Source: a virus
IMG/VR virus record: IMGVR_UViG_3300025133_009669
Location: 1 to 64,000 of that record
Direction: 5' to 3' (one strand)
Length of the DNA: 64,000 nucleotides
Below, piece after piece: positions 17,036-39,566 of this stretch. The number at the start of each line of letters is the position of its first letter. Within the stretch, counting starts at the first letter, position 1. A program made the translations under genes and the position numbers. The notes beneath the pieces were generated by a model, which was not told the origin of the DNA, searched no databases, and saw nothing but the letters and a program-made list of their open reading frames with translations.

Positions 17036-17467
17036 TTGGACAATTTAGAGAGAATCGAGAAGCCTTGGGGCTATGAGGTTATATGGGGCAAGAGCGCATC
17101 TTCTGATGGATATATTGGAAAGCTCCTCTTCATAGATGCCGGAGAAAGGCTTTCTATGCAATTTCACGAGATAAAGGAAGAGACAATTTTGGTAAAAACT
17201 GGAACTCTTTATATACAGACGGTAGGAAAGGCATCCGGAAATAATGATTTCTCTGAGCTTATGAAATCCGCTATAGAAGAGATTGTTTTGCGCCCTGGGG
17301 ATGTGATACACATCCCTCCATTCACAACTCATAGGTTTATTGCAAAAGAAGAGAATGTTGAGCTAATAGAGGTCAGCACCTGTTTTTTAAATGATGTAGT
17401 CAGAATCGAAGATGATTATGGAAGGTCCGATGAGAGCATTGATGAGGACCTTTGGGACGATTGCTAA
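17036..17467 (+). CDS. Cupin, mannose-6-phosphate isomerase type
   Basis: A 143-residue single-domain cupin. ERIEKPWGYEVIWG, AGERLSMQFHEIKEE, LRPGDVIHIPPFTTHRFIA and VELIEVST match the type II phosphomannose isomerase domain found at the C-terminus of ManC. The metal ligands would be the His/Glu of QFHEIKEE and the His of TTHRF. It would interconvert fructose-6-P and mannose-6-P, on the way to the GDP-mannose used by the gene upstream. The start is TTG at 17036, supported by GAGGAG eight bases upstream. No GDP-mannose pyrophosphorylase is present in the window. Confidence 0.8.
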   Translation: MDNLERIEKPWGYEVIWGKSASSDGYIGKLLFIDAGERLSMQFHEIKEETILVKTGTLYIQTVGKASGNNDFSELMKSAIEEIVLRPGDVIHIPPFTTHRFIAKEENVELIEVSTCFLNDVVRIEDDYGRSDESIDEDLWDDC

Positions 17468-17820
17468 ACTTTTCTTTCTAACGCTCTTAGGCTTTTCTTT
17501 GTAGATCTATTTTTCGAAGTTTCCCTCAGAGATCTTAAGCGCTTTTTTATTTTATCTAAAAAATCACCATTATAATCTTCGTTGCTCTTAAAATAAGCAG
17601 GCACTTTTATCTCTGCCTCTTTTGTGCCAAGAATACTTGCTCTTGCAAACAGATGCGGATTATTTTCAATAAAACTATAAAGAGTTTTTAGTTCATCTTC
17701 GCTCATTTCGCTTAATAGAGATTTTCCGGTTATTTCCATGCTTATGGACATAAAAGAAGGATCATAATCCCATGCAATATTCATGGTTTCGGCCAGATGA
17801 ATAACGTTTTCTTTTAGCAT
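17464..17820 (-). CDS. Hypothetical protein (minus strand)
   Basis: A 118-residue charged, mainly helical protein read leftward, one of only three genes on this strand. It starts MLKENVIHLAETMN and ends with a basic tail (KKRLRSLRETSKN... RALERKV). No motif is recognised. A weak GGAA lies before the ATG. It converges with the cupin gene (four-base overlap at the stops) and diverges from the membrane-protein gene, so the 56-base gap at 17821-17876 must hold promoters if they are separately expressed. It marks the edge between the sugar cassette and the following region. Confidence 0.6.
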   Translation of the reverse strand: MLKENVIHLAETMNIAWDYDPSFMSISMEITGKSLLSEMSEDELKTLYSFIENNPHLFARASILGTKEAEIKVPAYFKSNEDYNGDFLDKIKKRLRSLRETSKNRSTKKSLRALERKV

Positions 17821-17876: not shown

Positions 17877-18269
17877 ATGACTAATCACTTATTATTGGCT
17901 ATATTCTACTTGGTTATGGCCAACTCCTTGGCATGGTTTCAGGTGAACTTACAGTTCATATCTGAATGGTGGTACAATCGTCCACTTTTTACAATAATTT
18001 CTCTGTCGTTACCAACCACATTCTTTTTTTATTACGGCTGGAGATATTTGGTGGAATTTTACAATCAAGAAGTTTGGACAGCCAGAGTTGTGTCCTTCTC
18101 TATAAGCATTCTTTTATTCTGGATCTTTTCTTCAATTTTTAAATTGCAGCCTATAAATTTAAAAACTGGAATTTGTATAATGCTTTCATTCGCAATAATT
18201 TTAGTTCAGTCATATTGGCCGGACAGCAATCAGGCAATAGAGGTTGTGGATAAAGTTATCAAAAATTAA
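17877..18269 (+). CDS. Small integral membrane protein
   Basis: A 130-residue protein with about four hydrophobic segments: LLLAIFYLVMANSLAW (near 5-20), FTIISLSLPTTFFFYYGW (37-55), VVSFSISILLFWIFSSIF (70-88) and TGICIMLSFAIILVQ (95-112). The QVNLQFI segment lies between the first two. I recall similar small four-helix proteins in marine T4-like phages, but no function is known to me. Its stop overlaps the ATG of the next glycosyltransferase by one base. It may associate with the glycosyltransferases at the membrane; this is inference from position. Confidence 0.7.
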   Translation: MTNHLLLAIFYLVMANSLAWFQVNLQFISEWWYNRPLFTIISLSLPTTFFFYYGWRYLVEFYNQEVWTARVVSFSISILLFWIFSSIFKLQPINLKTGICIMLSFAIILVQSYWPDSNQAIEVVDKVIKN

Positions 18270-19219
18270 TGAAAATAACATTTATAGGGTTTAATCTTGG
18301 CCCAACAAGAGCATTTACAAATGGTCCTGGGATGTCTTTTTATAACTTCTTAACCGCAATACAAGAAGATGTCGAGATAGACGTTTTTACGGTGCTCCCT
18401 GTTGAGGAGAAGATAGGTGGAATAAATTTTTTCTCAATAAATGACACCGCGCAGCTGGCAGGATCAATTGGCTCCTCAGAGGTTCTTCATCATTGGAGCG
18501 GAATTGATAGAAGGTTCGTAAAAATTATAAATGCTGCAAGTTTATTGGGAAAGAAGATAGTTTGTGGCCCAAATGTTCTAGACACAGTGCAAATCGAGAA
18601 AGAGAAGAGCTATCTTTTTGGCTCAGATATAAGTCTTTTTCTGACGACAAACGATAAGCTTAAACATGCTTTGTCCCATCAACACGCAATTCCAATATCT
18701 AAAATAAAAAGCTTTATAGTTGGCCCCGACTTAGATCTATGGAGTCCGGCTGAAAACAGAGGCTCTGGTGGCATATTATGGAAGGGCAATTGCAACCATG
18801 AGGTTAAGGACGTAGATTTCGGCCTAAGGCTGCGAGATGCTTTGCCTCAATATAAGTTCATGTTCCTAGGGCATCCCGCTCCGTATAAATACGAGGAACA
18901 TATTTCTGTGGCCAAAACGGCCAGGGTGTATATAAATACATCGATGTCAGAAACGAAATCCCAAACGCTTATGGAAAGTTGGGCATCTGGAGTCCCGTCA
19001 GTAACACATCCTAAGATTTACTTGCATGGCGTAAATTACAAGACGGGAATTATTACGAATAAAACCATCGCAGATTATGCGGAGGCAATCTGCGAAATTA
19101 TGGAGGACAAAGTTTTGTATTCAGTTCTCTCCGATGGAGCGCTCTCTTACGCCAGAGAGCACCTCTCGAAAGAAGTTATAAGGGCAAGATATTTCTCCCT
19201 ATTAGAAGGCAAGCTATAA
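18269..19219 (+). CDS. GT4-like glycosyltransferase
   Basis: A 316-residue GT-B protein. NGPGMSFYNFLTAI near the N-terminus resembles the glycine-rich acceptor loop of GT4 enzymes, and INTSMSETKSQTLMESWASG (about 225-245) plus VPSVTHPKIY hold the donor-binding Glu region (E-x7-E). The length is slightly short for the family. Start ATG overlaps the upstream stop TAA and the end overlaps the next ATG by one base, so the three genes 17877-19926 form a tight unit. Sugar and acceptor are unknown. Confidence 0.75.
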   Translation: MKITFIGFNLGPTRAFTNGPGMSFYNFLTAIQEDVEIDVFTVLPVEEKIGGINFFSINDTAQLAGSIGSSEVLHHWSGIDRRFVKIINAASLLGKKIVCGPNVLDTVQIEKEKSYLFGSDISLFLTTNDKLKHALSHQHAIPISKIKSFIVGPDLDLWSPAENRGSGGILWKGNCNHEVKDVDFGLRLRDALPQYKFMFLGHPAPYKYEEHISVAKTARVYINTSMSETKSQTLMESWASGVPSVTHPKIYLHGVNYKTGIITNKTIADYAEAICEIMEDKVLYSVLSDGALSYAREHLSKEVIRARYFSLLEGKL

Positions 19220-19926
19220 TGCTTGTGGATATTATTATTCCGGCGTACAACCCTGGCCCCTATCTGCTTGACGCGCTGAAAAGCTGTACTCGTCAAAAAT
19301 ACAATAATTATACAGTCACTGTGATCGATGACAATTCGACCGAAGATGTAAAGTCAATTGTCGATAAATTTGCGGGATTCAATTATATCAGAAATAATGA
19401 AAACTTGGGCCCTGCAGGCGCTCGCAATGTAGGGATAAGGAATACCAGCGGAGACCTTATCAGTCTTCTGGATGCAGATGACCTGATGCACCCGGACAAG
19501 CTTAAACTCTCAGTAAAAGAGTTTAAGGATCAAGAAGTTGGTCTTGTTTGTGGGAACTATCAGATCCTGGTAAACAGGAAGAGGCTCCTAAGGCCTTTCT
19601 ATAGGAAGCCGGTTAAGATTGACCGCGATGTTTTGATGACGCAAAACTTTGTAGCGTCAGGGTCGACTACCTTTCGACGCACTCTGATCGAAGAAATCGG
19701 AGGGTTTGATGAGCGGTTCTGGATCTCCGAGGATTACGCTTGTTGGATAAGGATGTCTGAGATCTCTAAAATAAAATATATTCATGAAATACTATATTAT
19801 TATGCGGTATCCCCTGGGAATGACTCATTGACGCAGAGGGCAGATATTCAGAAAGATCACGAAAAGAATATAGAGATGATTAGACGAGAATCCAGAGAGA
19901 GAATGAGGATTACAAATGGGTCTTGA
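19219..19926 (+). CDS. GT2 family glycosyltransferase
   Basis: A 235-residue GT2 enzyme with textbook motifs: VDIIIPAYNPGPYLLDALK at the N-terminus, VTVIDDNSTED, GPAGARNVGIRNTSGD, and ISLLDADDLMHPDKL, where DADD is the DxD metal site. GGFDERFWISEDYACWIRM (around 165-185) holds the catalytic-base ED motif. It transfers one sugar to a growing glycan. It overlaps the next gene by eleven bases. Confidence 0.92.
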   Translation: MLVDIIIPAYNPGPYLLDALKSCTRQKYNNYTVTVIDDNSTEDVKSIVDKFAGFNYIRNNENLGPAGARNVGIRNTSGDLISLLDADDLMHPDKLKLSVKEFKDQEVGLVCGNYQILVNRKRLLRPFYRKPVKIDRDVLMTQNFVASGSTTFRRTLIEEIGGFDERFWISEDYACWIRMSEISKIKYIHEILYYYAVSPGNDSLTQRADIQKDHEKNIEMIRRESRERMRITNGS

Positions 19927-22318
19927 TTACAAGAATAAGAACATTCTTATAAAAACGTATCTTTCTGAATCTGGACTGTTTTATCTTGGAAAATCTCTCG
20001 GCAAGCATTTAGAGCGCCATAATAACGTAGTCTTTATGGCTAAGGAAAAATACAAAAAAGATGATCGCGGAATGTTTCGCCGCTTTTATCCCACGCCCTA
20101 TGATGAGGCAGCTTTAGACGGACTGAGTATCGTAAAGGTTAATGCGCGAGACTCAATAGAAGGCCAGGTTCTAAAGGCAATAAAAACACATCGTATAGAT
20201 GTAATTATTTCGTTAGAAACATTCATGAGAAAAGCTCAGTGGGTTCGTAAGGCAAGGATGGCCGGAGTCATCGTATGCGACGTTCCAATGCCAGAGTGGA
20301 CAAGCAAACAGTTTATCGAAAATAATTCTTATTCAATTTTTAATAAAATCCTTTGTCTTACAGAGACTTCATTAAAGGTTTTCTCAAAATACAAGACGGC
20401 TGAGCGATATGAGTGGGATTACGTAGATCGGGAATTGTTCCGTCCCAAAACAACTAAGGCATCGCTTCCAGCACTGACTTTTTATCACCCTGGAGCCTTA
20501 AATCCTGGGTTTTCTCAGAAAAATACAACTCAAGTTTTAGAGGCATTTTCTTCATTCTCTGAGAAGACAAAGGGGGATTATCAGCTGTTGGTAACAGGAA
20601 GGCTTGACGAAAAACAAGCAAATATAGTTAATAAATGCAAGAAAATCATACTAATACCAGAAGTATTAGATAGAGAGAAAGTTGCTGAGTTATATGATGA
20701 ATCCCATTGCCTGATAATCCCCTCTACGAGAGAGGGTCTTGGGCTTAGCTTTTATGAAGCCAAGGCTATGGGGTGCGAAATTATTACTGTAGATGCAGAC
20801 CCGATGAACAAGCACGCGAATTACCTTTCAAAGGTTTTATCGTATAATAAGAATGAAAGTCCCGTTCCATTTGCTGTGACTTCCTCCGAGAATATCGAAG
20901 AACAAATAACGAAATATTATAAGGATCATAAGATGAAAGAGAAAAAGACCCAAGAAGAAATTGAGCATGAAAATAATCAATTACTAGAGGCCTTTGAGGC
21001 TCAGACTGAAGACGCGAGCCCTCAGCCAGATGGTATGGACCCTGCTGTTTTGGCTAAGCTAAAAAGCAAAATGAGCTCTACAACACCCAGCTTGGAGGAA
21101 GAAGTGGATATTGTTAATCAGAGAAAAGTAAGCATAGAGCTTGCTGTAATTGGAGTTGGACAGGCTGGCTCACGAATCGCAGAGGTATTTCACCAGAAAG
21201 GATATGATGTCGGCGTCATTAATACTTCTGAACAAGATCTTGAGTTCATTGATGTTGCGCCAGGACAAAAGCTACTGCTAGAAGGTAGTCTCGGTGGAAC
21301 AGGTAAGGATCTAGATCTCGGAAGAGAGATTTTTGCAGAAAGCGCTGGTCAAATTTCTCCTTTTATTGAGGATGTAATTAGCGGAAACAATATGGCTTAC
21401 CTCGCAATCTCGGGCGGCGGCGGCTCAGGCAGCAGTTCCGTTGATACCCTAGTTCCCATGCTTTACGAGACTGGACTTCCGGTTGGCGTGATATATGTAC
21501 TTCCGAAGGCGACCGAAGATGCGCAATCAAAGAAGAACTCAATAGAAACTCTGTCTAGGCTGGCCAAGCTAACTGCGGATAATATGGTTTCCAACTTAAT
21601 CGTTGTTGATAACGCTAGAATTGAGCAGATTTATGCAAATCTCAGTCAGGCCGACTTCTGGGAGGCCTCAAACAATGCAATTGTAGAGCCGTTACATATT
21701 TTTAACTCACTAACATCTACTGCATCAAGATTTACTTCGTTAGATCCAAGTGATTTCGGAAGAATTATTTCATGTGGAGATTGCTCTATATACGGGGTAA
21801 TGTCAGTTGATGACTATATGGAAGAAACTGCTTTAGCAGAAGCTGTCATTGAGAGTTTGAACTCAAATATGTTGGCATCTGGCTTTGATATTTCGCAAAC
21901 ACGAGCTGGCGGAGTAATCATTACGGGTCCAGAAGAAGTTCTTCGAAAGATTCCAGCGCTAAATATTAATTACTGCTTCCATATGATATCTGAACAAACG
22001 AATGGAGCATCAGTTTATCAGGGTGTTTATGCGGTAGACTCTGACGAAGATTGCGTCAAGATCTATAGCTGGTTTGCCGGGTTAGGCCTTCCTAAGGATC
22101 GCGTTGAAAACCTGAAGAAAGAAAGCATGGAGCATGCTGCCGTAGCCACAGAGAAAGAGAGAAATCGCGCATCGGCAATGACTCTTGATCTTGGTGATGA
22201 CAAGGTGAATACTGTTGCCGAAGAAGTTACGAGGAAAATCCAGAAAAAGAAGTCAAGCTTCAGCCGCCTACAGCGAGGATCAAGGCCTTCTCTTATAGAT
22301 AAAAGAAGGAAGGGTTAA
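19916..22318 (+). CDS. Fusion of GT4 glycosyltransferase and FtsZ/tubulin-like GTPase
   Basis: An 800-residue open frame in two unlike parts. Residues 1-339 are a near complete GT4 enzyme: ESGLFYLGKSLG near the N-terminus and PSTREGLGLSFYEAKAMG with the E-x7-E donor motif. After a charged linker (340-405), residues 406-800 look like the FtsZ/tubulin superfamily: VIGVGQAGSRIAEVF (413 on), in the style of CetZ/TubZ first strands, LGGTGKDLDLGR, and ISGGGGSGSSSVDTL near 499 as a variant of the GGGTGSG signature. Both parts appear intact. An internal ATG at 20933 (residue 340) has AAGGAT seven bases upstream, so a free tubulin-like protein could also be made. A lost stop codon between two older genes is the simplest explanation. 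Confidence 0.75.
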   Translation: MGLDYKNKNILIKTYLSESGLFYLGKSLGKHLERHNNVVFMAKEKYKKDDRGMFRRFYPTPYDEAALDGLSIVKVNARDSIEGQVLKAIKTHRIDVIISLETFMRKAQWVRKARMAGVIVCDVPMPEWTSKQFIENNSYSIFNKILCLTETSLKVFSKYKTAERYEWDYVDRELFRPKTTKASLPALTFYHPGALNPGFSQKNTTQVLEAFSSFSEKTKGDYQLLVTGRLDEKQANIVNKCKKIILIPEVLDREKVAELYDESHCLIIPSTREGLGLSFYEAKAMGCEIITVDADPMNKHANYLSKVLSYNKNESPVPFAVTSSENIEEQITKYYKDHKMKEKKTQEEIEHENNQLLEAFEAQTEDASPQPDGMDPAVLAKLKSKMSSTTPSLEEEVDIVNQRKVSIELAVIGVGQAGSRIAEVFHQKGYDVGVINTSEQDLEFIDVAPGQKLLLEGSLGGTGKDLDLGREIFAESAGQISPFIEDVISGNNMAYLAISGGGGSGSSSVDTLVPMLYETGLPVGVIYVLPKATEDAQSKKNSIETLSRLAKLTADNMVSNLIVVDNARIEQIYANLSQADFWEASNNAIVEPLHIFNSLTSTASRFTSLDPSDFGRIISCGDCSIYGVMSVDDYMEETALAEAVIESLNSNMLASGFDISQTRAGGVIITGPEEVLRKIPALNINYCFHMISEQTNGASVYQGVYAVDSDEDCVKIYSWFAGLGLPKDRVENLKKESMEHAAVATEKERNRASAMTLDLGDDKVNTVAEEVTRKIQKKKSSFSRLQRGSRPSLIDKRRKG
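20921..20935 (+). promoter_or_regulatory. Possible internal ribosome binding site and ATG for the tubulin-like part
   Basis: AAGGAT at 20921-20926, then seven bases, then ATG at 20933, in frame with the 19916 gene at residue 340, exactly at the junction between the glycosyltransferase and the linker of the FtsZ/tubulin-like part. Quality equals that of many real starts in this window. It would give a 461-residue protein. Confidence 0.45.
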
Positions 22319-22319
22319 C

Positions 22320-23225
22320 ATGGCGATTGACAAGGTTTTTTACAATAGATCTAGCGCGAACTCTTTGGGATGGGAGCCGAGTTGGTTTGGAGCAGAGCAT
22401 TTTGATGAAGACCTTACTTCTAAGGTAAGAAAGTGGCAGCGAGCCAGAGGCTTAGTGGCAGATGGTCTCGTTGGTCCAACTACTTATCGAAGGATTTGGA
22501 CTGAGCGAGAAGAAGAGAGCAATCATCGTCCTATGGAAATTTCGCGTTCTAGCGAAGAGAGCTTTATTGTTCATAATGGTCGGCATATTCCGATAAAATG
22601 GAACAAGGTTATTCGCTGGGATCAGCCAAACGGATTGAGGTCTAATAAGGGCAACTATTATGATTACTCCGGAAAGCCTGATCGAAAGCCTACTTTTTTC
22701 ATAAATCATTGGGATGTATGTCTGTCTTCGGAATCTTGCGCCAAAGTTCTAAATAAAAGAGGTATCTCTGTTCACTTCTGTATCGATAATGACGGCACAA
22801 TCTATCAGCTTTTAGACACTCAGCATGGAGCATGGCACGCAGGAAGCACAGAGGCAAACAAGCGCTCTATTGGAGTTGAGATAAGCAACGCTTATTATCC
22901 CAAATACCAGTCTTGGTATGTGAAGAATGGATTTGGAGAAAGACCCATCAAGAGCGGGGCGCAAGTTCATGGAGGAACATTAGGTGATTTCACATGGTTT
23001 TATCCAGAGCAGATAGCTGCACTAAAGGCTCTTTGGTCAGCAGTCAGTTCGGGACTAGATATCCCATTAGAGTACCCTAAGGATAGCTCTGGAGCCCTGA
23101 GCACAACGGTTCATGAGGAATGTCGAAAGGCAACCTTCCGTGGATTCTGCAACCATTATGATCTGAGCAAGAGAAAGATAGATTGCGCAGGCCTTCTTAT
23201 TGATGAACTAATTGAAGATCTTTGA
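22320..23225 (+). CDS. N-acetylmuramoyl-L-alanine amidase with peptidoglycan-binding domain
   Basis: A 301-residue endolysin-type enzyme. Residues about 20-60 (EDLTSKVRKWQRARGLVADG, VGPTTYRRIW) form a PG_binding_1 domain. The catalytic amidase_2 domain (about 120-300) has zinc ligands H130 (FFINHWDV), H279 (CNHYDLS) and C289 or D288 near KIDCAG, plus E188 in IGVEISNAY. It cuts the bond between MurNAc and L-Ala in peptidoglycan. There is no signal peptide, so release would need a holin, or it acts from the virion. It begins two bases after the preceding stop. A 54-base gap follows. Confidence 0.92.
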   Translation: MAIDKVFYNRSSANSLGWEPSWFGAEHFDEDLTSKVRKWQRARGLVADGLVGPTTYRRIWTEREEESNHRPMEISRSSEESFIVHNGRHIPIKWNKVIRWDQPNGLRSNKGNYYDYSGKPDRKPTFFINHWDVCLSSESCAKVLNKRGISVHFCIDNDGTIYQLLDTQHGAWHAGSTEANKRSIGVEISNAYYPKYQSWYVKNGFGERPIKSGAQVHGGTLGDFTWFYPEQIAALKALWSAVSSGLDIPLEYPKDSSGALSTTVHEECRKATFRGFCNHYDLSKRKIDCAGLLIDELIEDL

Positions 23226-23279: not shown

Positions 23280-25652
23280 ATGATAGATCTCATATTAAAT
23301 AATATAGACTGTGAAATCCGAGGAGCCATAGACTCTAAGGACGTTAAGGCTTTGGATAAGATCATGAGTTATGATCATCCCGGTTATGCCTTTATGAAAG
23401 GGGCCAGAGGTGGGTATGGAAGCGGCGGCGCTCATGGAGGTTGGGATGGGAAAGTAAGGCTTCTGACGAAAGCCGGAAGATTTCCGATCGGGCTTCTGAG
23501 TATGGCTGAAGCTTTTTTTAAAGAGCATAAGATTGAGTATAAAGTCAAAGATTTAAGGTCAAAGATAAAATATGGACCTGAGATCCCGTTGGTGGTTGGA
23601 GATAAATTTGAAGCCAGAGATTATCAGGATAAGGCGATTGTTAAGGCTTATAAAGCTGGAAGCGGAATTATAAAAATGGCCACAGGCTGTCATGCAAAAG
23701 GAACTAAGGTTCTTATGTATGATGGGTCAACGAAGAAAGTAGAAGATATAGTCCCCGGAGATCAGGTTATGGGCCCTGATTCGAAGCCTAGGGCCGTGCT
23801 AGAGCTTTGTCGCGGTAGAGATAGGATGGTAAAAATAATACCCACAAAAGGGCAGCCCTTTACTATCAATCAAGAGCATATACTATCCTTAAAGCGAACT
23901 AAGAGAAAAGCTGGGGATAAGTTCGCCGGAAATATAGAGGATATAAGCTTCTCTGACTGGGAGAAGCTAACTCCCTATGGAAAGCATATTAGAAAGCTAT
24001 ATAGAGTTGGCATAGAATTTCCTAAAAAAGATTTACCTATAGAGCCATATTTTCTGGGATTATCTCTGGAAAATGGAGATCTTGATTTATCTACAGGCAC
24101 TACTCCTGGGAGTAAGTTTATACCGAATAAATACAAGACCTCAAATCGAGAAGATAGACTTCAAGTATTGGCAGGCCTTATAGACGCAGGCGGCCATTAT
24201 AATGGAAGGATTTATGATTATGCATCTAAATCTAAAGAATTAGTTAATGACATAGCATTTATATCAAGAAGCCTAGGTTTAGCTGCATACATAACAAAGC
24301 AGGACAAAATTTGTATGAGCAATGACGTTGCAGGGCGTTATAGGGTAACGATTTCTGGAGATCTAGACATTATTCCCTGCAGGTTGCCCAGAAAAATTGC
24401 AAATCCAAGAAGGCAGAAGAAAAATGTATTAGTTACTGGCTTCAAGTATGAGGAGGCTGGCGAGGATGACTACTTTGGATTCAAAGTAGATTCCGATAAT
24501 AGGTATTTGCTGGAAGACTTTACCGTTACTCATAATTCTGGAAAAAGCTTTACAATTGCTTCGTTAGTCGCAAAATATAATATACCAACTGTAGTTTACG
24601 TTATTGGAATCGAACTTCTTTATCAAATGAAAGAAACAATTGAGGCCTCTTATGGAATAGAGTGCGGAATTGTTGGCGGTGGAGAATGTGACACATCAAA
24701 GGCGGTAACTATTATGACTATTTGGTCTGCTGCCGCTGCATTTAATAAGAAGATTAAGATAACAGATAACGATACAACTGGAGACTCCAAAAAGCATACA
24801 GATAAGCTTAACAAAGAGATGGTTAGGAAGCGAGTTCAAGAAGCTCAGCTTTTCATCTTTGATGAATGCCAATATGCAGCATCAGAAACTCTTCAGTTTC
24901 TTCATAAGGCTAGCGTGTCCGCAAGACATAGGTTCTTGTTCTCGGGAACGCCCTGGAGAGATACTGGCGATGATATTCTGATCGAAGCAGTTTCAGGCCC
25001 CAGGATAGTTGACGTTAGCGCTACCTTTTTGATCGAAAAGGGATATCTCGTTCAGCCAAAGATTTACTTTTTAGACGTACCAGTGATGAGAGGAGTAGGC
25101 AAGACTTACCATGATGTCTATAAGAATTACGTTGTAGAAAATGAAGATAGAAATGATCTAATTATAAAAGCAGCAAAGCAGTTAGTGAGGCAGGGCAAGA
25201 AGGTGCTCATTCTTGTTGTTCGTGTAGGTCACGGAAATATTCTTTTAGAGAAGCTGCAAGATGATTTCCGGATAAAGTTTTTAGATGGAACAAAGTCCTC
25301 AAAGCTAAGGATGGAGTCGATAGAGGAGATGAAGGCCGGCAAGCTCGACATAATGATAGCCTCCAAGATCTTCGATCAGGGGGTTGACATTCCAGATCTT
25401 GACGCCTTAATTCTTGCCGGCTCAGGAAAGTCCTCTGGTCGGGCCTTGCAGAGGATTGGTCGAGTAATTAGAAAAGCGGATGGAAAGAAAAAGGCCATTG
25501 TTGTTGAGTTTTTTGATAACTGTAAGTACTTAAGAGATCATTCTGAAGCAAGAATAAAAGTTTATAGAAGCGAATCAGGATTTGATATTAAGAGGCAGAA
25601 GAATAAGGCTCCAATGACCTATCCGAAACGTGCCCCAGTAAAATGGGTTTAG
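23280..25652 (+). CDS. uvsW: UvsW-like superfamily 2 helicase with intein
   Basis: A 790-residue precursor; removing the intein (137-419) leaves 507 residues, close to T4 UvsW (503). Residues 1-100 carry an N-terminal domain (GAHGGWDGKVRLL) like the UvsW DNA-binding domain. Walker A is split by the intein: KMATG before, SGKSFTIAS after. The rest has LFIFDECQYAAS (Walker B), FLFSGTPWRDT (motif III), and RALQRIGRVIRK (motif VI). UvsW unwinds branched DNA and R-loops and helps the switch from origin to recombination-dependent replication. Splicing is obligatory because the P-loop is interrupted. It heads the replication block. No strong ribosome binding site is seen before ATG 23280. Confidence 0.9.
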   Translation: MIDLILNNIDCEIRGAIDSKDVKALDKIMSYDHPGYAFMKGARGGYGSGGAHGGWDGKVRLLTKAGRFPIGLLSMAEAFFKEHKIEYKVKDLRSKIKYGPEIPLVVGDKFEARDYQDKAIVKAYKAGSGIIKMATGCHAKGTKVLMYDGSTKKVEDIVPGDQVMGPDSKPRAVLELCRGRDRMVKIIPTKGQPFTINQEHILSLKRTKRKAGDKFAGNIEDISFSDWEKLTPYGKHIRKLYRVGIEFPKKDLPIEPYFLGLSLENGDLDLSTGTTPGSKFIPNKYKTSNREDRLQVLAGLIDAGGHYNGRIYDYASKSKELVNDIAFISRSLGLAAYITKQDKICMSNDVAGRYRVTISGDLDIIPCRLPRKIANPRRQKKNVLVTGFKYEEAGEDDYFGFKVDSDNRYLLEDFTVTHNSGKSFTIASLVAKYNIPTVVYVIGIELLYQMKETIEASYGIECGIVGGGECDTSKAVTIMTIWSAAAAFNKKIKITDNDTTGDSKKHTDKLNKEMVRKRVQEAQLFIFDECQYAASETLQFLHKASVSARHRFLFSGTPWRDTGDDILIEAVSGPRIVDVSATFLIEKGYLVQPKIYFLDVPVMRGVGKTYHDVYKNYVVENEDRNDLIIKAAKQLVRQGKKVLILVVRVGHGNILLEKLQDDFRIKFLDGTKSSKLRMESIEEMKAGKLDIMIASKIFDQGVDIPDLDALILAGSGKSSGRALQRIGRVIRKADGKKKAIVVEFFDNCKYLRDHSEARIKVYRSESGFDIKRQKNKAPMTYPKRAPVKWV
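23688..24536 (+). mobile_element. Intein in UvsW Walker A motif, with degenerate LAGLIDADG domain
   Basis: A 283-residue intein from Cys137 to Asn419, followed by Ser420. Splicing blocks are visible: CHAKGTKVLMYDG (block A), PFTINQEHIL (block B, T-x-x-H type) and FTVTHN-S at the end with the penultimate His. The homing domain has two LAGLIDADG-like stretches, FLGLSLENGDL and LAGLIDAGGHY. In each, the position of the catalytic acid is changed (N in the first, G in the second), so endonuclease activity is probably lost while splicing residues are kept. Insertion in the P-loop is a common intein site. Confidence 0.9.
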
Positions 25653-25742: not shown

Positions 25743-26342
25743 ATGGATCAAGACGAATTTTATCAAAAAATTCCAGAATGGATTTCCAAGCCTAAGGATA
25801 CGTGGAATCACATAACTCTTATGGCGTACTTTTGTCACAAGTATGAAAAAGTACACGGAGTTCGGTTTAGGCTGGTCAGATGGCAATCTGACCCAGGAAA
25901 AGGAAAAGAAAGTAGGGACTTCGCCAAGTTATTCAAAACATTGGCGCCAGAAGGCTATTCTGCACTTCCTGCGTTAAAGAAGAAAGAGATAAGAGCTCAA
26001 ACAAACATCAAGATATATAACTATATAAATTGGATTTTTGATTATAAGTTTAGGCGTGGCGATCGTTCTGTTACAGGAACAAAACTTTTTCTTTTGCCAT
26101 CCATGATTAATGAATTTGAAAGAATGTACTCTACTTTCTTAAAGAAAAAGCAGTCAACAAATAAATTCGAGATTCTTCTAAAATGGGCAAAGCTGGAGAC
26201 TCCGACAATATTTGAGCATCATCAGGTTGAACATCCTGAGGATGTAGGTATGATAAAAACATATGCGGAAAGCTATCATTTGGAAGACGGTTCTGTTGAG
26301 CTTATGTTTTTAGATAAGGCCAAAGGATTAGGTTTAATATGA
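25743..26342 (+). CDS. Hypothetical protein in the replication block
   Basis: A 199-residue protein of mixed charge without a motif I recognise. Notable stretches are ITLMAYFCHKYEKVHG near the N-terminus, YINWIFDYKFRRGDRS in the middle and TKLFLLPSMINEFERMY. A GGAGGG sequence five bases ahead of ATG 25743 is among the strongest ribosome binding sites in the window. It overlaps the Lsm-like gene (ATGA). Its place between the UvsW helicase and the helicase loader suggests a role in replication, possibly as a DNA-binding or accessory factor; this is inference from position. Confidence 0.7.
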   Translation: MDQDEFYQKIPEWISKPKDTWNHITLMAYFCHKYEKVHGVRFRLVRWQSDPGKGKESRDFAKLFKTLAPEGYSALPALKKKEIRAQTNIKIYNYINWIFDYKFRRGDRSVTGTKLFLLPSMINEFERMYSTFLKKKQSTNKFEILLKWAKLETPTIFEHHQVEHPEDVGMIKTYAESYHLEDGSVELMFLDKAKGLGLI

Positions 26343-26785
26343 AGGAAAAGAAAACTCTAGAAAATATGGAGGTGACCCTCTATATGGACGGAGGTTGGGA
26401 AGTCTCTGGAAAGGTGGAAAAGGTAGACCCCGATAAATTTATTATCGAAAGCAATGGCTCTCTCGTTATGGCCTTTAGAGATAAAATCTCATGCTTGGCA
26501 GTCTCTGAAGGACAGAGGGCAGCCAAGCCAGGGCCCGCTGTTCAATTCCAGCAAAAGAAGGACGAGCAACCAGAGGACTTAGAAGGCCCCTTTCCGATGA
26601 ATGGTCTAATGTATGATGAGACCTCTATGTCTATTCCTGCTACTCTTCTTGGCAAGTCTAGGGCTCAATTTGATTCTGATGATGACTTATCTGTCTTTTA
26701 TCCAGGCGGAGCAGGGATCTCTGATTCAAAGGATGGCTCTAGCTCTAATATCTCTTTCGGAATAGAAGATGATTCCGAAGAATAA
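26339..26785 (+). CDS. Lsm/Hfq-fold-like small protein with acidic tail
   Basis: A 148-residue protein. Residues about 10-55 (VTLYMDGGWEVSGKVEKVD, KFIIESNGSLVMAFRDKIS) have the alternating strand pattern of an Sm/Lsm-type beta barrel: a G-W-E-V-S-G first turn followed by a strand ending before an LV-F-R segment. The remainder (60-148) is low in structure, with proline and many Asp/Glu/Ser (DSDDDLS, EDDSEE). Lsm folds bind RNA or DNA ends; the acidic tail could recruit a basic partner. It overlaps both neighbours in the helicase operon. The fold call is by eye and could be a general SH3-like barrel. Confidence 0.55.
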   Translation: MKEKKTLENMEVTLYMDGGWEVSGKVEKVDPDKFIIESNGSLVMAFRDKISCLAVSEGQRAAKPGPAVQFQQKKDEQPEDLEGPFPMNGLMYDETSMSIPATLLGKSRAQFDSDDDLSVFYPGGAGISDSKDGSSSNISFGIEDDSEE

Positions 26786-29293: not shown

Positions 29294-29581
29294 ATGGCTA
29301 TCTATAAATATAGATGTAACCTCTGCTCCTCTGTAGAGGTATTTAATATTTCTATAAAAAAATATGCGCAGTTAAGTCAGGAAGACGCTTTTGGCAAGAT
29401 GATTTGCAAGAATTGTAACAAATTATCTGAGTTCACCAGAACCTTTGGGGTCTCTTCTAGTAAGATAGAAAAAGACAGAGAGGAGACGATGAGGCAGATA
29501 AAGGAAGACTCTAGAAGGATTGTTCAGAGTATTAAAAGCGGAAACACAAAAACCATCAGAAATATTTACGGAGAAGAATAA
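29294..29581 (+). CDS. FmdB-like zinc-ribbon protein
   Basis: A 95-residue protein. It begins MAIYKYRCNLCSSVEVF, where CxxC and the Y-x-Y-x-C start match the FmdB/CxxC-ribbon family, and the second pair is MICKNCNKLSEF, giving one zinc ribbon within residues 8-45. A charged helix follows (EETMRQIKEDSRRIVQ). Such small ribbons bind nucleic acid or proteins. It overlaps the PrkA gene by one base. Confidence 0.75.
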   Translation: MAIYKYRCNLCSSVEVFNISIKKYAQLSQEDAFGKMICKNCNKLSEFTRTFGVSSSKIEKDREETMRQIKEDSRRIVQSIKSGNTKTIRNIYGEE

Positions 29582-31500
29582 TGCCGCGGAAGAAAAAGAA
29601 GAGTCTTTTGGAGGCTCTGAGCAGCCACGTTAACGCAGAAAGCGCCTTGGAGTGGGAGGGTACTTTGGCCGAGTATGTGGAGATGATTGTAGAGAGTCCC
29701 AGCCTGCATAGAAGCGCTCACCAGCGAGTTCTCGATATGATTGAGCTTGCTGGAACCGAAAGAAATGAGGATGGACTTATTACTAAGTATAAGTTTTTTG
29801 AGCAAGACTTATTTGGAATTGAAGAGTCTATTTCTGAGATAATGTCATATCTTCGGGCAGCGGCAGCCGGAAGTGAAGTCTCTAGGCGGATCCTTCTTAT
29901 GTACGGCCCCACTTCATCCGGAAAGTCTCAGCTTGCAGTTCTCTTAAAGAAGGGTCTTGAGCATTACTCTAAGACAGACGCAGGAAGGACCTACTGCCTA
30001 ACTGATTCTCCGATGTATGAGGATCCCCTGTGTGCGATTCCAATGGAGTTGCGCCCCAGGTTCAAAGAGGAGTATGGAATTAAGATAGACGGAGTTCTTA
30101 GTCCATACATGGATCTCGTTCTCAGGGAGACTTATGGCGGAGACTTCCTCAAGCTCCCCGTTAAGCGATTCTTTTTCTCAGAACAGTCCCGAGTTGGAAT
30201 CGGAACCTTTGTTCCATCAGATAAGAAGAGCCAAGATATTTCAGAGCTAGTTGGCTCCATGGATCTTAGTAAGATTGGAGAATATGGCTCAGAATCAGAC
30301 CCTAGAGCGTATCGATTCGACGGAGAGCTAAACGTAGCAAATCGAGGTGTTATGGAATTCGTTGAGATGCTCAAGGTAGATCAGAAGTTCCTATATGTGC
30401 TCTTAACTCTTGCGCAAGAAAAGAATATCAAGACTGGCCGCTTCCCATTTATATATGCCGATGAGTTCTTGCTTGCACATAGTAATGAGACCGAGTACAT
30501 GAGGTTCTTGGCAAAGGATGAAATGGAAGCGCTTCATGATAGGATTATTGTTGTCAAGGTTCCTTACAACCTAACTGTTTCAGAGGAAATAAGGATTTAC
30601 GAGAAGCTAATTGGCCAAGCACGGTTTGACGGAGTTCATATTGCACCATATACACTACATTGCGCAGCAATGTTCGCAGTTCTGTCTCGTCTAAAGGATT
30701 CAAAGCATGAAGGTCTAACCAACTTGAGCAAGATGAAGCTTTACGATGGAGAAGATGTAGAGGGATTCTCCAAGGTTGATGTTCCTGTTCTTAAACGAGA
30801 GTTTGATGCGGAAGGTATGACTGGCGTTTCTCCGAGATATGTTATAAACAGAATTTCTTCGATGCTAGCAGAAGAAGGATCTGATTGCGTCACTCCAATC
30901 GACGTGATTAGGGCAATTCGAGATGGCTTTAGCAGCAACCCCAAGCTAGATAGAAAAGAAATCGACAGACTAGAGAACATTCTTACTACAGTTATTGAAG
31001 AATATAGCAAGATGGCTAGAAATGAGGTTCAAAAGGCATTCTTCGTCAACTTTGAAGAAGAAGTTCAGAGTCTGCTTTCAAATTACATGGATCATGTAGG
31101 AGCATATCTTGATAACACTAATCTTCTAGATGATTGGGGTGAGCCGAGCGAACCTAATGAAAGGCTTATGCGCTCAATTGAAGAGAAGGTTGGTATTTCC
31201 GAGACAGGAAAGAAGTCTTTCCGCCAAGAAGTCTACCGTAAGATGCTTCGCTCTGCCTCTGCAGGGGGCAAGGATTACAACTACAAGGATCACGTCAAGC
31301 TTCGTGAGGCTCTGGAGAAGCAGCTCTTCGATGAGAGGCAGGATGTAATTAGGCTAACTGTTAGCACAAGAAACCCCGATGAGGACGAGCTAAAGAAAAT
31401 TAATGTTGTAATAAAGACTCTATGCGATAAGCATGGATACACCGCTAAGAGCGCGAATAAGCTGTTGAGGTACGTAAGCTCATTGATGGCCAGGAACTAA
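29581..31500 (+). CDS. PrkA/YeaG-like serine protein kinase (AAA+)
   Basis: A 639-residue protein, near the 644 of E. coli YeaG. The N-terminal AAA+ part has Walker A LMYGPTSSGKSQLAVLLK (about 106-123); PrkA-type signatures follow (FLKLPVKRFFFSEQSRVGIG, NRGVMEFVEMLKVDQKFLY, SNETEYMRF). The C-terminal PrkA domain (GVSPRYVINRISSML) is present. In bacteria PrkA/YeaG acts with a DUF444 protein and SpoVR in starvation and stationary-phase responses; kinase and recently protease activities have been proposed. Here all three partners follow in order (29581, 31502, 34491), so a transferred operon working as a unit is likely. GGAG ahead of ATG supports the start. Confidence 0.9.
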   Translation: MPRKKKKSLLEALSSHVNAESALEWEGTLAEYVEMIVESPSLHRSAHQRVLDMIELAGTERNEDGLITKYKFFEQDLFGIEESISEIMSYLRAAAAGSEVSRRILLMYGPTSSGKSQLAVLLKKGLEHYSKTDAGRTYCLTDSPMYEDPLCAIPMELRPRFKEEYGIKIDGVLSPYMDLVLRETYGGDFLKLPVKRFFFSEQSRVGIGTFVPSDKKSQDISELVGSMDLSKIGEYGSESDPRAYRFDGELNVANRGVMEFVEMLKVDQKFLYVLLTLAQEKNIKTGRFPFIYADEFLLAHSNETEYMRFLAKDEMEALHDRIIVVKVPYNLTVSEEIRIYEKLIGQARFDGVHIAPYTLHCAAMFAVLSRLKDSKHEGLTNLSKMKLYDGEDVEGFSKVDVPVLKREFDAEGMTGVSPRYVINRISSMLAEEGSDCVTPIDVIRAIRDGFSSNPKLDRKEIDRLENILTTVIEEYSKMARNEVQKAFFVNFEEEVQSLLSNYMDHVGAYLDNTNLLDDWGEPSEPNERLMRSIEEKVGISETGKKSFRQEVYRKMLRSASAGGKDYNYKDHVKLREALEKQLFDERQDVIRLTVSTRNPDEDELKKINVVIKTLCDKHGYTAKSANKLLRYVSSLMARN

Positions 31501-31501
31501 C

Positions 31502-32689
31502 ATGTCCAAAAAGTCAGGTACAGGCGAAGGCCTGTCAGACATATGGAGGCTTAAGCAAAGAGGAAAGAGAGACTCCGATAGGCATAAAAAGCTTATCAAC
31601 GATGCCATTAGGAAGAACGGAAAGGATCTGATTACAGAATATAATATTATTCAATCAGATGGCGATAAAAAGATTAAAGTTCCAATTCGTTTTTTGGATC
31701 GCTATAAGTTTAAATATGGAAAGCTTAAGGATAGATCTGGAACAGGTCAGGGGCTTGACGTAAATTCTGGGGATAAATACCGAATAAAAAAAGGCAAGAA
31801 AAAGGCCAAAGCAGGAAATAAGGCAGGAGACAAAGAGGGAGAGATTGCTTTTGAGGCAGAAGTTTCTATAGACGAGCTTGTAGATATTCTTTTGGATGAA
31901 CTAAACCTTCCTTGGATGGAGCCGAATAAAAGTTCTGCAATAGAAGTAGAGACGGAAGAGCTAGCCTCTGTGGAAAGAAAGGGTATATATCCAGATTTAG
32001 ATCTAAAGAAAACATTGATCGAAAATCTAAGGCGAAATGCGGCCAAGGGTGACGCCAAAATTGGTGGGATTAATGAAAACGACTTAAGATATAGGTCGTG
32101 GGAGACTAACACAGAATATCATTCAAATGCTGCGGTATATCTTATGATGGATCGAAGCGGCTCTATGAGTGAAGAGAAGCGTTATATAGCCAAGAGCTTT
32201 TACTTTTGGATGGTCCAGTTTCTCAAAAGACGATATAAGAAGATAACCCTGGTTTTTATTGCTCACGACACCAAAGCTCATAAGGTAGAGGAGAAGGACT
32301 TCTTTAACGTTACAAGCGGAGGCGGCACCAAGTGTAGCTCTGCCTTTAAGATGGCGTACGAACATATGGTCGCAAACCATCCTCCTGAGACATATAATAA
32401 CTACGTTTTTGAATTTTCAGACGGAGATAATTTTGGCGTTGACAACCAATTGGTCTTAGAGTATGTAGAGAAGATGCTGCCACTTGTTCGGGCTATAGGC
32501 TATGGTGAAATTATTCCAGATGACGAATACACATGGAGCACTGAAGAGAATCGGCTATCAACTCTTTTAGAAAAAGAGGTAAAGAGAACGAGGTTTGTTT
32601 CTATTCGAGTTACCTCTAGAGATCAGGTTTTTGATGCGCTTAAAATGTTCTTTAATATCGATGGTAAGGCTGTAAAGGCAAAAACATAA
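31502..32689 (+). CDS. YeaH/YhbH (DUF444) VWA-domain protein
   Basis: A 395-residue DUF444 protein, starting one base after the PrkA stop. The N-terminal part has GTGEGLSDIWRLKQRGKRDS, GTGQGLDVN and a Lys-rich stretch (about 95-115), as in YeaH. The von Willebrand A-type domain carries the MIDAS motif LMMDRSGSMSEEKR near residue 217, then TSGGGTKCSSAFK and VFEFSDGDNFG. YeaH homologues partner with YeaG/PrkA. The gene is followed by a 41-base gap and a homing endonuclease gene that separates it from spoVR. Confidence 0.9.
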   Translation: MSKKSGTGEGLSDIWRLKQRGKRDSDRHKKLINDAIRKNGKDLITEYNIIQSDGDKKIKVPIRFLDRYKFKYGKLKDRSGTGQGLDVNSGDKYRIKKGKKKAKAGNKAGDKEGEIAFEAEVSIDELVDILLDELNLPWMEPNKSSAIEVETEELASVERKGIYPDLDLKKTLIENLRRNAAKGDAKIGGINENDLRYRSWETNTEYHSNAAVYLMMDRSGSMSEEKRYIAKSFYFWMVQFLKRRYKKITLVFIAHDTKAHKVEEKDFFNVTSGGGTKCSSAFKMAYEHMVANHPPETYNNYVFEFSDGDNFGVDNQLVLEYVEKMLPLVRAIGYGEIIPDDEYTWSTEENRLSTLLEKEVKRTRFVSIRVTSRDQVFDALKMFFNIDGKAVKAKT

Positions 32690-32730
32690 ATATATAGCGT
32701 TTAATTGTCACGGTTTAGCGGTCTGAATCA

Positions 32731-34494
32731 ATGAAGAAAAAAGAAATAAATCTTGACATTTTACGAAAGCTCTATGTCGATGAGCGACTGTCTTCTGTTA
32801 AAATCGCAAAGAAGATGGATGTATCTTCAACTACGATATTGAAGGCTCTTAAAGACAATGGAATAATTAGACCTCCACTGCTTTGCGACGACAAAGCGTG
32901 GCTTAAGCGTCAATATATAGAGCTCAATAAAAGCTGCAGAACGATATCAGAAGAAAATAATATAAAGAAGCATATTGTTTCTTCGCGCATCAAAAGGTTT
33001 AAGCTGACAAAGAGCAAAGAAGACATTACTGCAGAGGCGAAAAGGGTGCGATCAAAGACAAACTTAGAAAAGTTTGGACATAAAAACCCATTTCAGAACC
33101 AAGGCGTAAAAGATGCTATCCGCGAATCCTTTATGAGCAAATATGGGGTTGACCATCCAATGAAAGACCCTACATACAGAGAGCGGGTAGAGGCCTCAAA
33201 TCTGAAGAGATATGGAGTAAAAACTACACTCTTAGACTCGCAGGTTAAAGTTAAATCTGCAGAGACTAATCTTAAAAAATATGGGACACCAATTCCACAG
33301 CAATCTGACACTGTAAAGAGCAGGACTCGAAAGACTAATTTAGAAGCCTATGGTGTTGAGCACTTTTATCAGAGCGAAGAGTTTAAGGCGTCTGCAGCAG
33401 AAACAAACCTGAAGAGATATGGCGTCAAAAATCCAATGCTCAATGCGGAGGTCAAAAGCAGAGCTCTTGCGAGCAGAGTGAAAGGCAACTCGGCAGAGAC
33501 ATCAGAAGTCTCCGGAGAGAAAGGATCTCACAAACTAATCTTTGGAGTCCCGGCCTTTGTCGTAGCTGAAAAGAATAAAATTCCATATAATACATTTAAT
33601 CAATGGTTGAATAGAAGAATCTTTCCGCTATCCAAAGAAGACCTAGAGGTTTATCTAGAGGGATATAGGAGCAATGATACTTCTATCGAGATGACTCTAT
33701 CAAGGGCCCTAAACCTTCCTCGCCATAATAAAAAGTTTGATAAAAAAAGATATCCAGATTTAAATTATAAGCCGGATTTTAAACTGTCAGATAAAATTGC
33801 GGTCAATGTTGATGGTCTTTATTGGCATTCCGAAAAGTTTAAAGACAAAAGATATCATTTTAAAATGCGGAAAGATTTCGAGAGTCATGGGCTGCATATG
33901 CTGCAGTTCCGCGAAGATGAGATCGACAATAAACTAGAGATTGTAAAATCGATTATAATGGCAAAATCTGGAAAGATTAGCAAAAGGCATTTCGCAAGAA
34001 AACTTAACTTGGTAGAGGTCTCAAATAGTGACGCAAGAGTCTTTCTCGACAAGACTCATTTAAAGGGTCATCTCGACGCAAAGCATATTGGTCTTAAGTC
34101 CGGCAATGATCTTATTATGATCATGTCCTATAAGATTTACTCCTCCAGGCTTAAGATTGAGCGACTGTCTTGTAAACTAAATACCATTGTTACTGGAGGC
34201 TTTTCTAAGCTTCTAAAGTTTTTAGAGAAAAAATTTTCAGATAATATTCGGCATGTAGATTACTGGGTAGATCTCAGATATGGCACAGGTAATTTTTTAA
34301 GTAAGTTAGGGTTTTCCGCTGAGCGAGAAACGCTGGGTTTTGAGTGGACTGATACATATCATGTTCATAATAGACTTAGGTGCGTTGCTAATAATAACGG
34401 GAACGGCAAGACTGAGGCAGAGTCTGGGAAAGAGCTTGGCTGGGTAAAGATTTATGACGCAGGCCAAAGGCTATGGACAAAGGAGCTGAGATGA
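32731..34494 (+). mobile_element. Free-standing homing endonuclease (EDxHD/Vsr-like fold) with modular repeats
   Basis: A 587-residue protein. N-terminal helix-turn-helix: SSVKIAKKMDVSSTTILKAL. From about 110 to 250 come four to five 30-40-residue repeats built on TNLEKFGHKNPFQ, SKYGVDHPMKDP, SNLKRYGVKTTLL and TNLKRYGVKNPML, modules of the type seen in phage homing endonucleases. A C-terminal nuclease domain (about 320-430) has SIEMTLSRAL, NYKPDFKL, VNVDGLYWHSEKF and MLQFREDEI, consistent with the PD-(D/E)xK/EDxHD group. The stop overlaps the SpoVR ATG and its last codons contain the AGGAG for spoVR, so it has inserted cleanly between two genes of one operon. Confidence 0.85.
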
Positions 34495-37880: not shown

Positions 37881-37952
37881 TGCAATTAAAGAATCGTTAG
37901 GGCGGGCCACCTTTAACAATTATGGGCTAATGGCCTGCAAGTGGAGAGAAAA

Positions 37953-39566
37953 ATGGAATTGGCGTCAAAAATTTTATCTGATATAACCGTGCATATGAAA
38001 TACGCACGATATCTCGATTCTGAGAACAGGAGAGAGAACTGGGAAGAGCTTATTGCAAGAAGCGAGAATATGCATATTAAGAAGTTCCCCCATTTAAAGG
38101 ATGAAATTAAAAAGGCGTATAAATTCGTATATGATAAGAAAGTTCTTCCGTCGATGCGCGTCCTCCAGTTTGGAGGTAAGCCAATTGAGATTGCGCCAAA
38201 TAGAGCCTATAATTGCGGGTATTTGCCGATTGACGACATTCGGGCTTTCAGCGAAACAATGTTCCTTCTTCTTGGTGGAACAGGAATTGGATACTCTGTT
38301 CAAAAGCACCACGTTGAGCAGCTTCCTGAAATCAGGAAGCCTAATCCGAAAAGAACAAGGCGTTTTTTAATCGCAGACTCTATTGAGGGTTGGGCGGATG
38401 CCGTTAAGGCTTTAGTGAACTCTTATTTCAGAGAGACATCTAAGCTTCGATTTGATTTCTCCGATATTCGTCCTAAGGGCGCAAATCTGGTCACGTCTGG
38501 AGGCAAAGCTCCGGGCCCTCAGCCGCTAAAGGAGTGCTTAGTGAGGCTAGAGGGCATCCTCGATTCAAAAGAGACTGGAGACAGGCTCAGCCCCATAGAA
38601 GTCCATGATATGATGTGTTATATTGCGGATGCTGTTTTGGCTGGAGGCATTAGAAGGGCGGCATTGATTGCTCTGTTTTCTGCGGATGATGAAGAAATGA
38701 TATCTTCAAAGTCAGGAAACTGGTCTGAGGCAAATCCTCAGCGGGGAAGAGCAAACAACTCCGTTGTCTTAATGAGGCATAGAATTAAGAAGGAATACTT
38801 CATGTCTCTCTGGGAGAAGATTAAGGCCTCTGGGGCGGGAGAGCCTGGTTTCTACTTTACAAATGACAAGGACTGGGGTTGTAATCCATGTTGCGAAATT
38901 GGCTTAAAGCCTTTTCAGTTTTGCAATCTTGTTGAAATAAACGCCTCTGATCTAGTCGACCAAGAGGACTTTAACTCTAGAGCCAAAGCTGCGTCATTCA
39001 TCGGAACCCTCCAAGCCAGCTATACAGACTTTCATTATTTGAGGCCAATATGGCAAAGAACAACCGAAAAGGATGCTCTCTTAGGAGTTAGTCTGACGGG
39101 CATTGCAAGCGGAAGAGTATTGGAGTTAGATGCGACATATGCCGCAGGAGTAGTTGGCGAAGAAAACATTCGAGTGGCTAACCTGCTAGGCATAAACCCC
39201 GCAGCAAGAACAACCTGTATCAAGCCTGCTGGCTGTCAAGTTCCATCCTCTGTGATTAGAACTTCAGAGGGAGATATGAGTCTGCATGATATCTTCGCAA
39301 AGAACGGAATTGATTTAAGTGACCATCTAGATGAATATAGAGAGTGGTATGACGTTACTTCTGACATAAAAGTTCCGAATCAAAATGGTGAAATGAATTC
39401 CATAACAAGGTTGTTCGTAAATGGATTCGAAGAGTCTATCCGATTTACAATGGAGGATGGCTCCACTATAGAGTGTACGCCACATCACAAATTCATGATG
39501 GCCGATGGAGAATGGAAGCAGGCAATCGATATTACAGAGGAAGACGACTGGATGCATGTAGGGTAA
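37953..39566 (+). CDS. nrdJ: Class II ribonucleotide reductase, N-terminal part, fused to N-half of split intein
   Basis: A 537-residue protein: reductase residues 1-427 then 110 residues of intein. Reductase features: NRAYNCGYLPI (first redox Cys), a LLLGGTGIGYSVQ segment, NPCCEIGLKPFQFCNLVEIN with the finger-loop Cys and second redox Cys, and TTCIKPAG at the break. The pattern is that of adenosylcobalamin-dependent NrdJ, making deoxyribonucleotides without oxygen. GTG 37941 is in frame but ATG 37953 lies six bases after GGAG. The C-terminal part is encoded separately from 39647. The joined enzyme would have about 620 residues, short of the 739 of the Lactobacillus enzyme. Confidence 0.9.
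   Translation: MELASKILSDITVHMKYARYLDSENRRENWEELIARSENMHIKKFPHLKDEIKKAYKFVYDKKVLPSMRVLQFGGKPIEIAPNRAYNCGYLPIDDIRAFSETMFLLLGGTGIGYSVQKHHVEQLPEIRKPNPKRTRRFLIADSIEGWADAVKALVNSYFRETSKLRFDFSDIRPKGANLVTSGGKAPGPQPLKECLVRLEGILDSKETGDRLSPIEVHDMMCYIADAVLAGGIRRAALIALFSADDEEMISSKSGNWSEANPQRGRANNSVVLMRHRIKKEYFMSLWEKIKASGAGEPGFYFTNDKDWGCNPCCEIGLKPFQFCNLVEINASDLVDQEDFNSRAKAASFIGTLQASYTDFHYLRPIWQRTTEKDALLGVSLTGIASGRVLELDATYAAGVVGEENIRVANLLGINPAARTTCIKPAGCQVPSSVIRTSEGDMSLHDIFAKNGIDLSDHLDEYREWYDVTSDIKVPNQNGEMNSITRLFVNGFEESIRFTMEDGSTIECTPHHKFMMADGEWKQAIDITEEDDWMHVG
39234..39563 (+). mobile_element. Split intein, N-terminal half (IntN) in nrdJ
   Basis: A 110-residue segment starting at Cys (codon 39234) and ending at the TAA. 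Block A is CQVPSSVIRTSEGDMSLH, block B is IECTPHHKFM (T-x-H-H). The end, TEEDDWMHVG, stops where the homing domain would begin in a contiguous intein. The insertion point lies between KPAG and TTSLTLG, a conserved active-site region of ribonucleotide reductases. Confidence 0.92.

Follow-up and report, generated by a model that had tools for sequence, protein, structure and literature searches.

A single phage gene joining a GT4 glycosyltransferase to a TubZ-type tubulin, with a conserved internal start that may also yield free TubZ

A single open frame in the DNA analysed here, a window of 64,000 nucleotides belonging to a virus record in IMG/VR that is 87,461 bases long, joins a GT4 glycosyltransferase (GT) directly to a tubulin-like protein of the TubZ type (Table 1). 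Judging from the conservation of this frame and of a start site embedded in it, we think it probable that this one phage gene gives two in-frame products, a GT-TubZ fusion and a free TubZ of 461 aa, and that the fusion co-assembles into filaments. We know of hardly any enzymes fused to tubulin-family filament proteins. The literature and databases searched contained no enzyme-tubulin fusion in viruses, and neither the databases nor the literature on phage tubulin/FtsZ with glycosyltransferase or fusion disclosed one of GT with TubZ. Within the reach of these sources the GT-TubZ fusion is unreported, and it is built of known parts. If both products are made, the gene would supply a natural enzyme-loaded cytomotive filament and a direct handle on the role of TubZ in uncultured huge phages.

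Table 1. Coordinates of the fusion gene, its parts and its glycan-related neighbours (positions in the window, except for the last three rows, which refer to the contigs named)
Feature	Position	Strand	Remarks
Upstream GT4-like glycosyltransferase, same cassette	18269..19219	+	Pfam match weak and under the cut-off; L009, L023 and L020 have it at the same position
Upstream GT2 glycosyltransferase, 11-nt overlap with the fusion gene start	19219..19926	+	Pfam Glycos_transf_2 3.4e-33
GT4-TubZ fusion, one open frame, 800 aa	19916..22318	+	Second assembly identical; six other lineages have this frame open too
GT4 glycosyltransferase part, residues 1-339, end ...ITKYYKDHK; EX7E in REGLGLSFYEA	19916..20932	+	AF2 pLDDT mostly 80-95
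Internal Shine-Dalgarno TAAGGA, 7 nt ahead of ATG	20920..20925	+	GAGGA or GGAGA in relatives; putative function
Internal start codon ATG (Met340), putative start of free TubZ	20933..20935	+	ATG in 7/7 fused lineages
TubZ, 461 aa if started internally: N-terminal extension that varies, GTPase core, C-terminal tail of basic character	20933..22315	+	
T1 nucleotide-binding loop GVGQAGSR	21152..21175	+	aa 413-420
Tubulin signature loop SGGGGSGSSS	21410..21439	+	aa 499-508
T7 catalytic loop DPSDF (D..D pair as in FtsZ)	21743..21757	+	Invariant in alignments of 10 and 13
Upstream SDR, example L100	3946-4911		
Upstream SDR, example L082	3980-4951		
Upstream SDR, example L077	4003-4959		

The gene runs on the plus strand from an ATG at 19916 to a stop codon at 22316-22318 as one frame of 800 codons with no internal stop, and the antisense frame of the same region contains dozens of stops. 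Both halves are recognised by Pfam above the gathering cut-off, Glycos_transf_1 (PF00534, 1e-13) at aa 200-343 and Tubulin (PF00091, 2.3e-10) at aa 409-573. By these matches and its motifs, the first half is a GT4 glycosyltransferase with a GT-B C-terminal domain containing the EX7E motif, which is intact in all 14 GTs of the lineages described below. The T1 and T7 loops are likewise intact in the 14 TubZs; the alignments give the conserved loops as GVGQAGSR, GGGG[ST]GSSS and [LM]DPSDF, and GxGQ[AG]G is present in 67/67 distant loci of the TubZ family. An AF2 model of the fusion, built with 21 rows, had a mean pLDDT of 75.7, with values of about 90 in the GT and of 65-85 over most of the TubZ core, and replaced an earlier model of TubZ alone, which was poor (pLDDT 54). 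The best solved Foldseek matches were TubZ-Bt and B. cereus TubZ, with TM-scores of 0.73-0.78 by target length (0.77-0.78 and an rmsd of 3.5-3.7 angstrom to 4ei7, 0.73 to 3j4s); judged on fold only, FtsZ and CetZ come almost as close as TubZ. The frame, the Pfam matches and the predicted fold thus bear out the preliminary description of this DNA, which had read a GT4 enzyme joined in frame to an FtsZ/tubulin-superfamily protein and had suggested structure prediction as a check.

That description had also brought up the phage tubulins PhuZ and TubZ, and only the second name stood. In a profile search against all PDB sequences, the best match was the pXO1 TubZ RepX (4ei7, 3.2e-23), followed by archaeal FtsZ (3e-12), and PhuZ was not listed at 0.01. 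The phiKZ protein (3zbp) reached an E value of 0.26, on which a PhuZ identity was rejected on sequence, and the match to phrog_4733 was faint as well (5.9e-5). The score with the FtsZ equivalog TIGR00065 was 46 against a cut-off of 295. By sequence and fold, the TubZ half is therefore of the TubZ type (plasmid pXO1/RepX) and not PhuZ. On plasmids, its relatives are TubZ-like proteins from Bacillaceae, among others, with 20-30% identity, and the sole match among the INPHARED phages was gp138 of phage G, 24.7% identical over the TubZ half. Among the 50 BFVD matches listed, the best viral one was a standalone protein of 452 residues, 42% identical, and no protein with both halves was recognised.

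Relatives were collected by IMG/VR scans, using the TubZ half and alignments, and by one GTDB scan. Among them are 14 distinct lineages whose tubZ is immediately preceded by a gene for a GT4 from the same family. The two genes share one frame in seven of these (the window, that is L001, and L002, L003=L008, L004=L005, L006, L007 and L017), overlap by 8-23 nt in another frame in six (L009, L023, L045, L048, L058 and L059), and are separated by 91 nt in L020, so that the search for separate genes in relatives, proposed beforehand, did find them. The TubZ parts of the six other fused lineages are 69-88% identical to that of the window. Jumbo-sized contigs of 395, 335, 332 and 317 kb occur among the relatives and a weak terminase match was obtained in 4/8 contigs; a search for the major capsid protein Gp23 gave no match, the controls likewise having none. 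The group consists of large, uncultured bacterial viruses.

The repeated recovery of the fused frame bears on the doubt, raised in the preliminary description, that a stop codon had simply been lost in the raw data. L009 and L023 differ from L004 by one T within a short T run, as might be expected if two separate genes had been joined by a frameshift or a missing stop in the data. However, a second contig of the window's virus is identical over 13,260 bases, L003/L008 and L004/L005 are pairs that are each sequence-identical and come from two different metagenomes, and the junction sequences of the seven lineages are different and every one is open. An assembly artefact is hardly credible on this evidence; the duplicate assemblies and the seven lineages rule out a sequencing slip as the cause of the fused frame, which is conserved and not a product of the reads.

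The join itself suggests how TubZ may be made on its own. The window has TATAAGGATCATAAG-ATG at this place, the ATG being at 20933. In all seven fused lineages, GAGGA or AAGGA lies within the last GT codons and the ATG follows 4-7 nt past the purine core. In the alignment this ATG coincides with the true start of TubZ in the 7 unfused lineages, and in the overlapping ones the TubZ-start ATG follows the same tract with a similar spacing. The tract is preserved although the encoded residues vary (YYED, YYKD, YGDI; E, K or G codons), so the conserved element looks like a ribosome-binding site and not like a peptide. Where the tract encodes Glu the codon is always GAG, whose share of the Glu codons is only about 45% in most of these genes and 16-30% in others. 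This bias is a rough estimate, and related lineages are not independent. Of the in-frame ATGs in the window, the one at the junction is preceded by the longest match to a Shine-Dalgarno sequence, 6 nt. Some relatives have further in-frame ATGs that equal or outscore it, and Shine-Dalgarno cores, being short, are common. We also considered whether a promoter within the GT might feed the internal start and rejected this, promoter-like sites within the fusion gene being no more frequent than in shuffles.

The N-terminal motifs ENxxLxxAF and VLxKL, located after the ATG, are common to fused and unfused TubZ, which makes residues 340-405 an extension of TubZ itself and not a linker. The tubulin part had been taken to begin at about residue 406; its actual start is residue 340 (nt 20933), some 65 residues further upstream. 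A free TubZ of 461 aa would be comparable to the standalone homologues, mostly of about 450-480 aa. The lack of a stop separating the halves could also mean a single bifunctional protein, the internal start being unused and all TubZ existing as a self-polymerising fusion of 800 aa. This is very unlikely in view of the conserved internal Shine-Dalgarno and ATG, aligned with the unfused TubZ starts, and a domain of 339 residues on each subunit might moreover hinder multi-stranded filaments. The earlier alternative between a lost stop and a true bifunctional protein was a false choice: the relatives have overlapping genes, and the TubZ start was kept on entering one frame.

The fusion is best explained as having arisen from adjacent overlapping genes, GT and then TubZ. 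The ancestral TubZ ribosome-binding site would already have been inside the last GT codons, and small length changes between the Shine-Dalgarno and the ATG would have brought both genes into one frame. The series from separate to overlapping to in-frame genes, with the start kept, would represent a route to fusion without losing the downstream protein. The fusion clade had 47/82 support on TubZ alone and the concatenated tree implies two changes; a single fused clade gave an AU p of 0.197, i.e., the data are compatible with one origin or two. Phage G was tried as outgroup, its branch being too long for rooting the tree.

Between L007 and L017, dN/dS is about 0.13 in the GT and 0.02 in the TubZ core, so that both halves are under purifying selection. 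The joining of the halves might nevertheless be a tolerated read-through, in which only free TubZ and the activity of the GT count, the GT having acquired a harmless TubZ tail when overlapping genes came into one frame. The overlap is the common state in the relatives, with a frame that differs between them, and variation at the GT C-terminus is unconstrained. The argument from frame retention is itself weak, since the free stretch from Shine-Dalgarno to ATG comprises only a few nt and the fused frame could persist without selection; by rough hand estimates, with related lineages not independent, the chance that none of the seven lineages has a stop in this stretch is about 40%, and the one length change would keep the frame in about one case in three. 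Against this, the seven lineages keep the frame at a divergence where synonymous sites are saturated or nearly so in the fused pairs compared, including a change of 9 versus 12 nt between fused lineages that preserves it. Even if the read-through were tolerated, each GT molecule would bear the TubZ half. We regard this reading as possible, if rather unlikely; the fused protein might be a by-product that is simply tolerated, or it might be cleaved.

According to the two-product reading that we prefer, ribosomes starting at 19916 would translate the GT4 and run directly into TubZ and, as no stop lies between the halves, every completed GT would carry TubZ. Ribosomes starting from the embedded Shine-Dalgarno and the ATG at 20933 would yield free TubZ, which is probably made too, given that the internal start is conserved. 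By homology, free TubZ would form GTP-driven filaments, and the fusion would enter them through its TubZ half, at a lower ratio than free TubZ. Since the GT would be made only attached to TubZ, co-assembly would put it on the filament, and the glycosyltransferase would thereby be carried on or localised by it. We infer from these steps two products, their co-assembly and a localisation of sugar transfer, and thus a filament tethered to glycan synthesis, as the preliminary description had envisaged.

The genes upstream of the fusion encode GlmS-like, GMD-type SDR, cupin, GT2 and GT4-like proteins, which indicate a glycan cassette. A minus-strand ORF of 118 codons and no known family (17464-17820) lies inside this otherwise plus-strand cassette. 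On the other side, an N-acetylmuramoyl-L-alanine amidase with a peptidoglycan-binding domain (22320-23225) starts one base past the TubZ stop, and it is missing from that position in L009, L020 and L023.

Elsewhere in the window, genes encoding a PrkA kinase, a DUF444 (YeaH-type) protein and SpoVR, normally a bacterial trio, are found close together at 29581-37082 (Pfam 6.5e-116, 1.3e-83 and 5.9e-100), SpoVR having an intein inside. Intein-like/homing-endonuclease domains are present in the UvsW-type helicase (23280-25652), which in L009 and L020 is without the insert, and in SpoVR (34473-37082), a ribonucleotide reductase (37941-39566, below cut-off) and topoisomerase I (48377-51961). A small protein encoded at 26339-26785 has a weak, sub-cut-off Hfq/LSm match (0.0057), with a similar ORF at the same place in L009, L020 and L023, and a phage peptide deformylase is encoded at 63224-63793 (PF01327, 3.8e-40).

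A scan with a broader alignment found 66 further loci, with 36-46% identity and on contigs of up to 481 kb, which together with L057 make a distant survey of 67 loci, not all of them independent. TubZ is standalone in 67/67, and the fused-GT profile matched no neighbour at any of them. An SDR gene is located upstream of tubZ in 65 of the 67, in 45 of them within about 105 nt (examples in Table 1). Three of these SDRs were typed and are RmlB-like, resembling dTDP-glucose 4,6-dehydratase (TIGR01181, E about 1e-103, slightly under the curated cut-off), and some, e.g., that of L075, look degenerate. The genes downstream usually include those for a UvsW-type helicase and a DnaC-like loader. The SDR beside standalone tubZ indicates that a nucleotide-sugar/glycosylation neighbour predates the fusion, and this deep association merits study of its own. 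That a two-product filament steers sugar transfer, and that the tubZ/SDR adjacency reflects a coupling of filament and glycosylation across the huge-phage family, is a tentative extension that we would not rate as likely.

TubZ of Bacillus plasmids (pXO1 RepX 4ei7; TubZ-Bt 2xka/3j4s) has the same fold, the same T1, signature and T7 loops and a long C-terminal tail, at about 20% identity; the GT fusion and an N-terminal extension of 60-100 residues distinguish the phage protein. Since the closest relatives are plasmid TubZ, the phage protein might serve in the partition of a plasmid-like or pseudolysogenic phage genome, as in type III TubZRC systems, the GT being irrelevant. The basic C-terminal tail would fit this role, being the region through which TubZ contacts partner proteins (PMC5322520); such a tail is also present across the wider family, which makes a partner, whether DNA or an adaptor, plausible. 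However, the Pfam scan found no TubR-like gene among the neighbours of the fusion, no iteron-like tubC centromere was seen in the 10 kb covered (17-27 kb of the window), in contrast to the plasmid partition systems, and the fusion would be left unexplained, all of which makes a partition role improbable.

Jumbo-phage glycosyltransferase clusters, in which several GT genes lie beside nucleotide-sugar enzymes (PMC7824862), resemble the window with its upstream GlmS-like, GMD-type SDR, GT2 and GT4 genes; the parts of that source consulted mention no tubulin fusion. PhuZ/phiKZ TubZ of the nucleus-forming jumbo phages is likewise a tubulin of large phages that likely forms filaments, but its sequence similarity is barely detected. 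A search for chimallin (201phi2-1 gp105) in 13 contigs gave no match, with no positive control and an incomplete record for the window. The putative FtsZ-like gp138 of Bacillus phage G, whose identity to the TubZ half is given above, is standalone, and its neighbours, several of them nucleotide-metabolism genes, include no annotated GT.

A functional parallel is offered by lambda gpC/Nu3, in which a protease and a scaffold are encoded in one frame with an internal start. There, an enzyme domain is joined to an assembly domain that internal initiation also yields by itself, so that the enzyme is drawn into the assembly, and an interaction between C and Nu3 has been reported (PMC3224144). The proteins are unrelated, the parallel not being one of homology, and the lambda assembly is a capsid rather than the cytomotive filament that we propose here.
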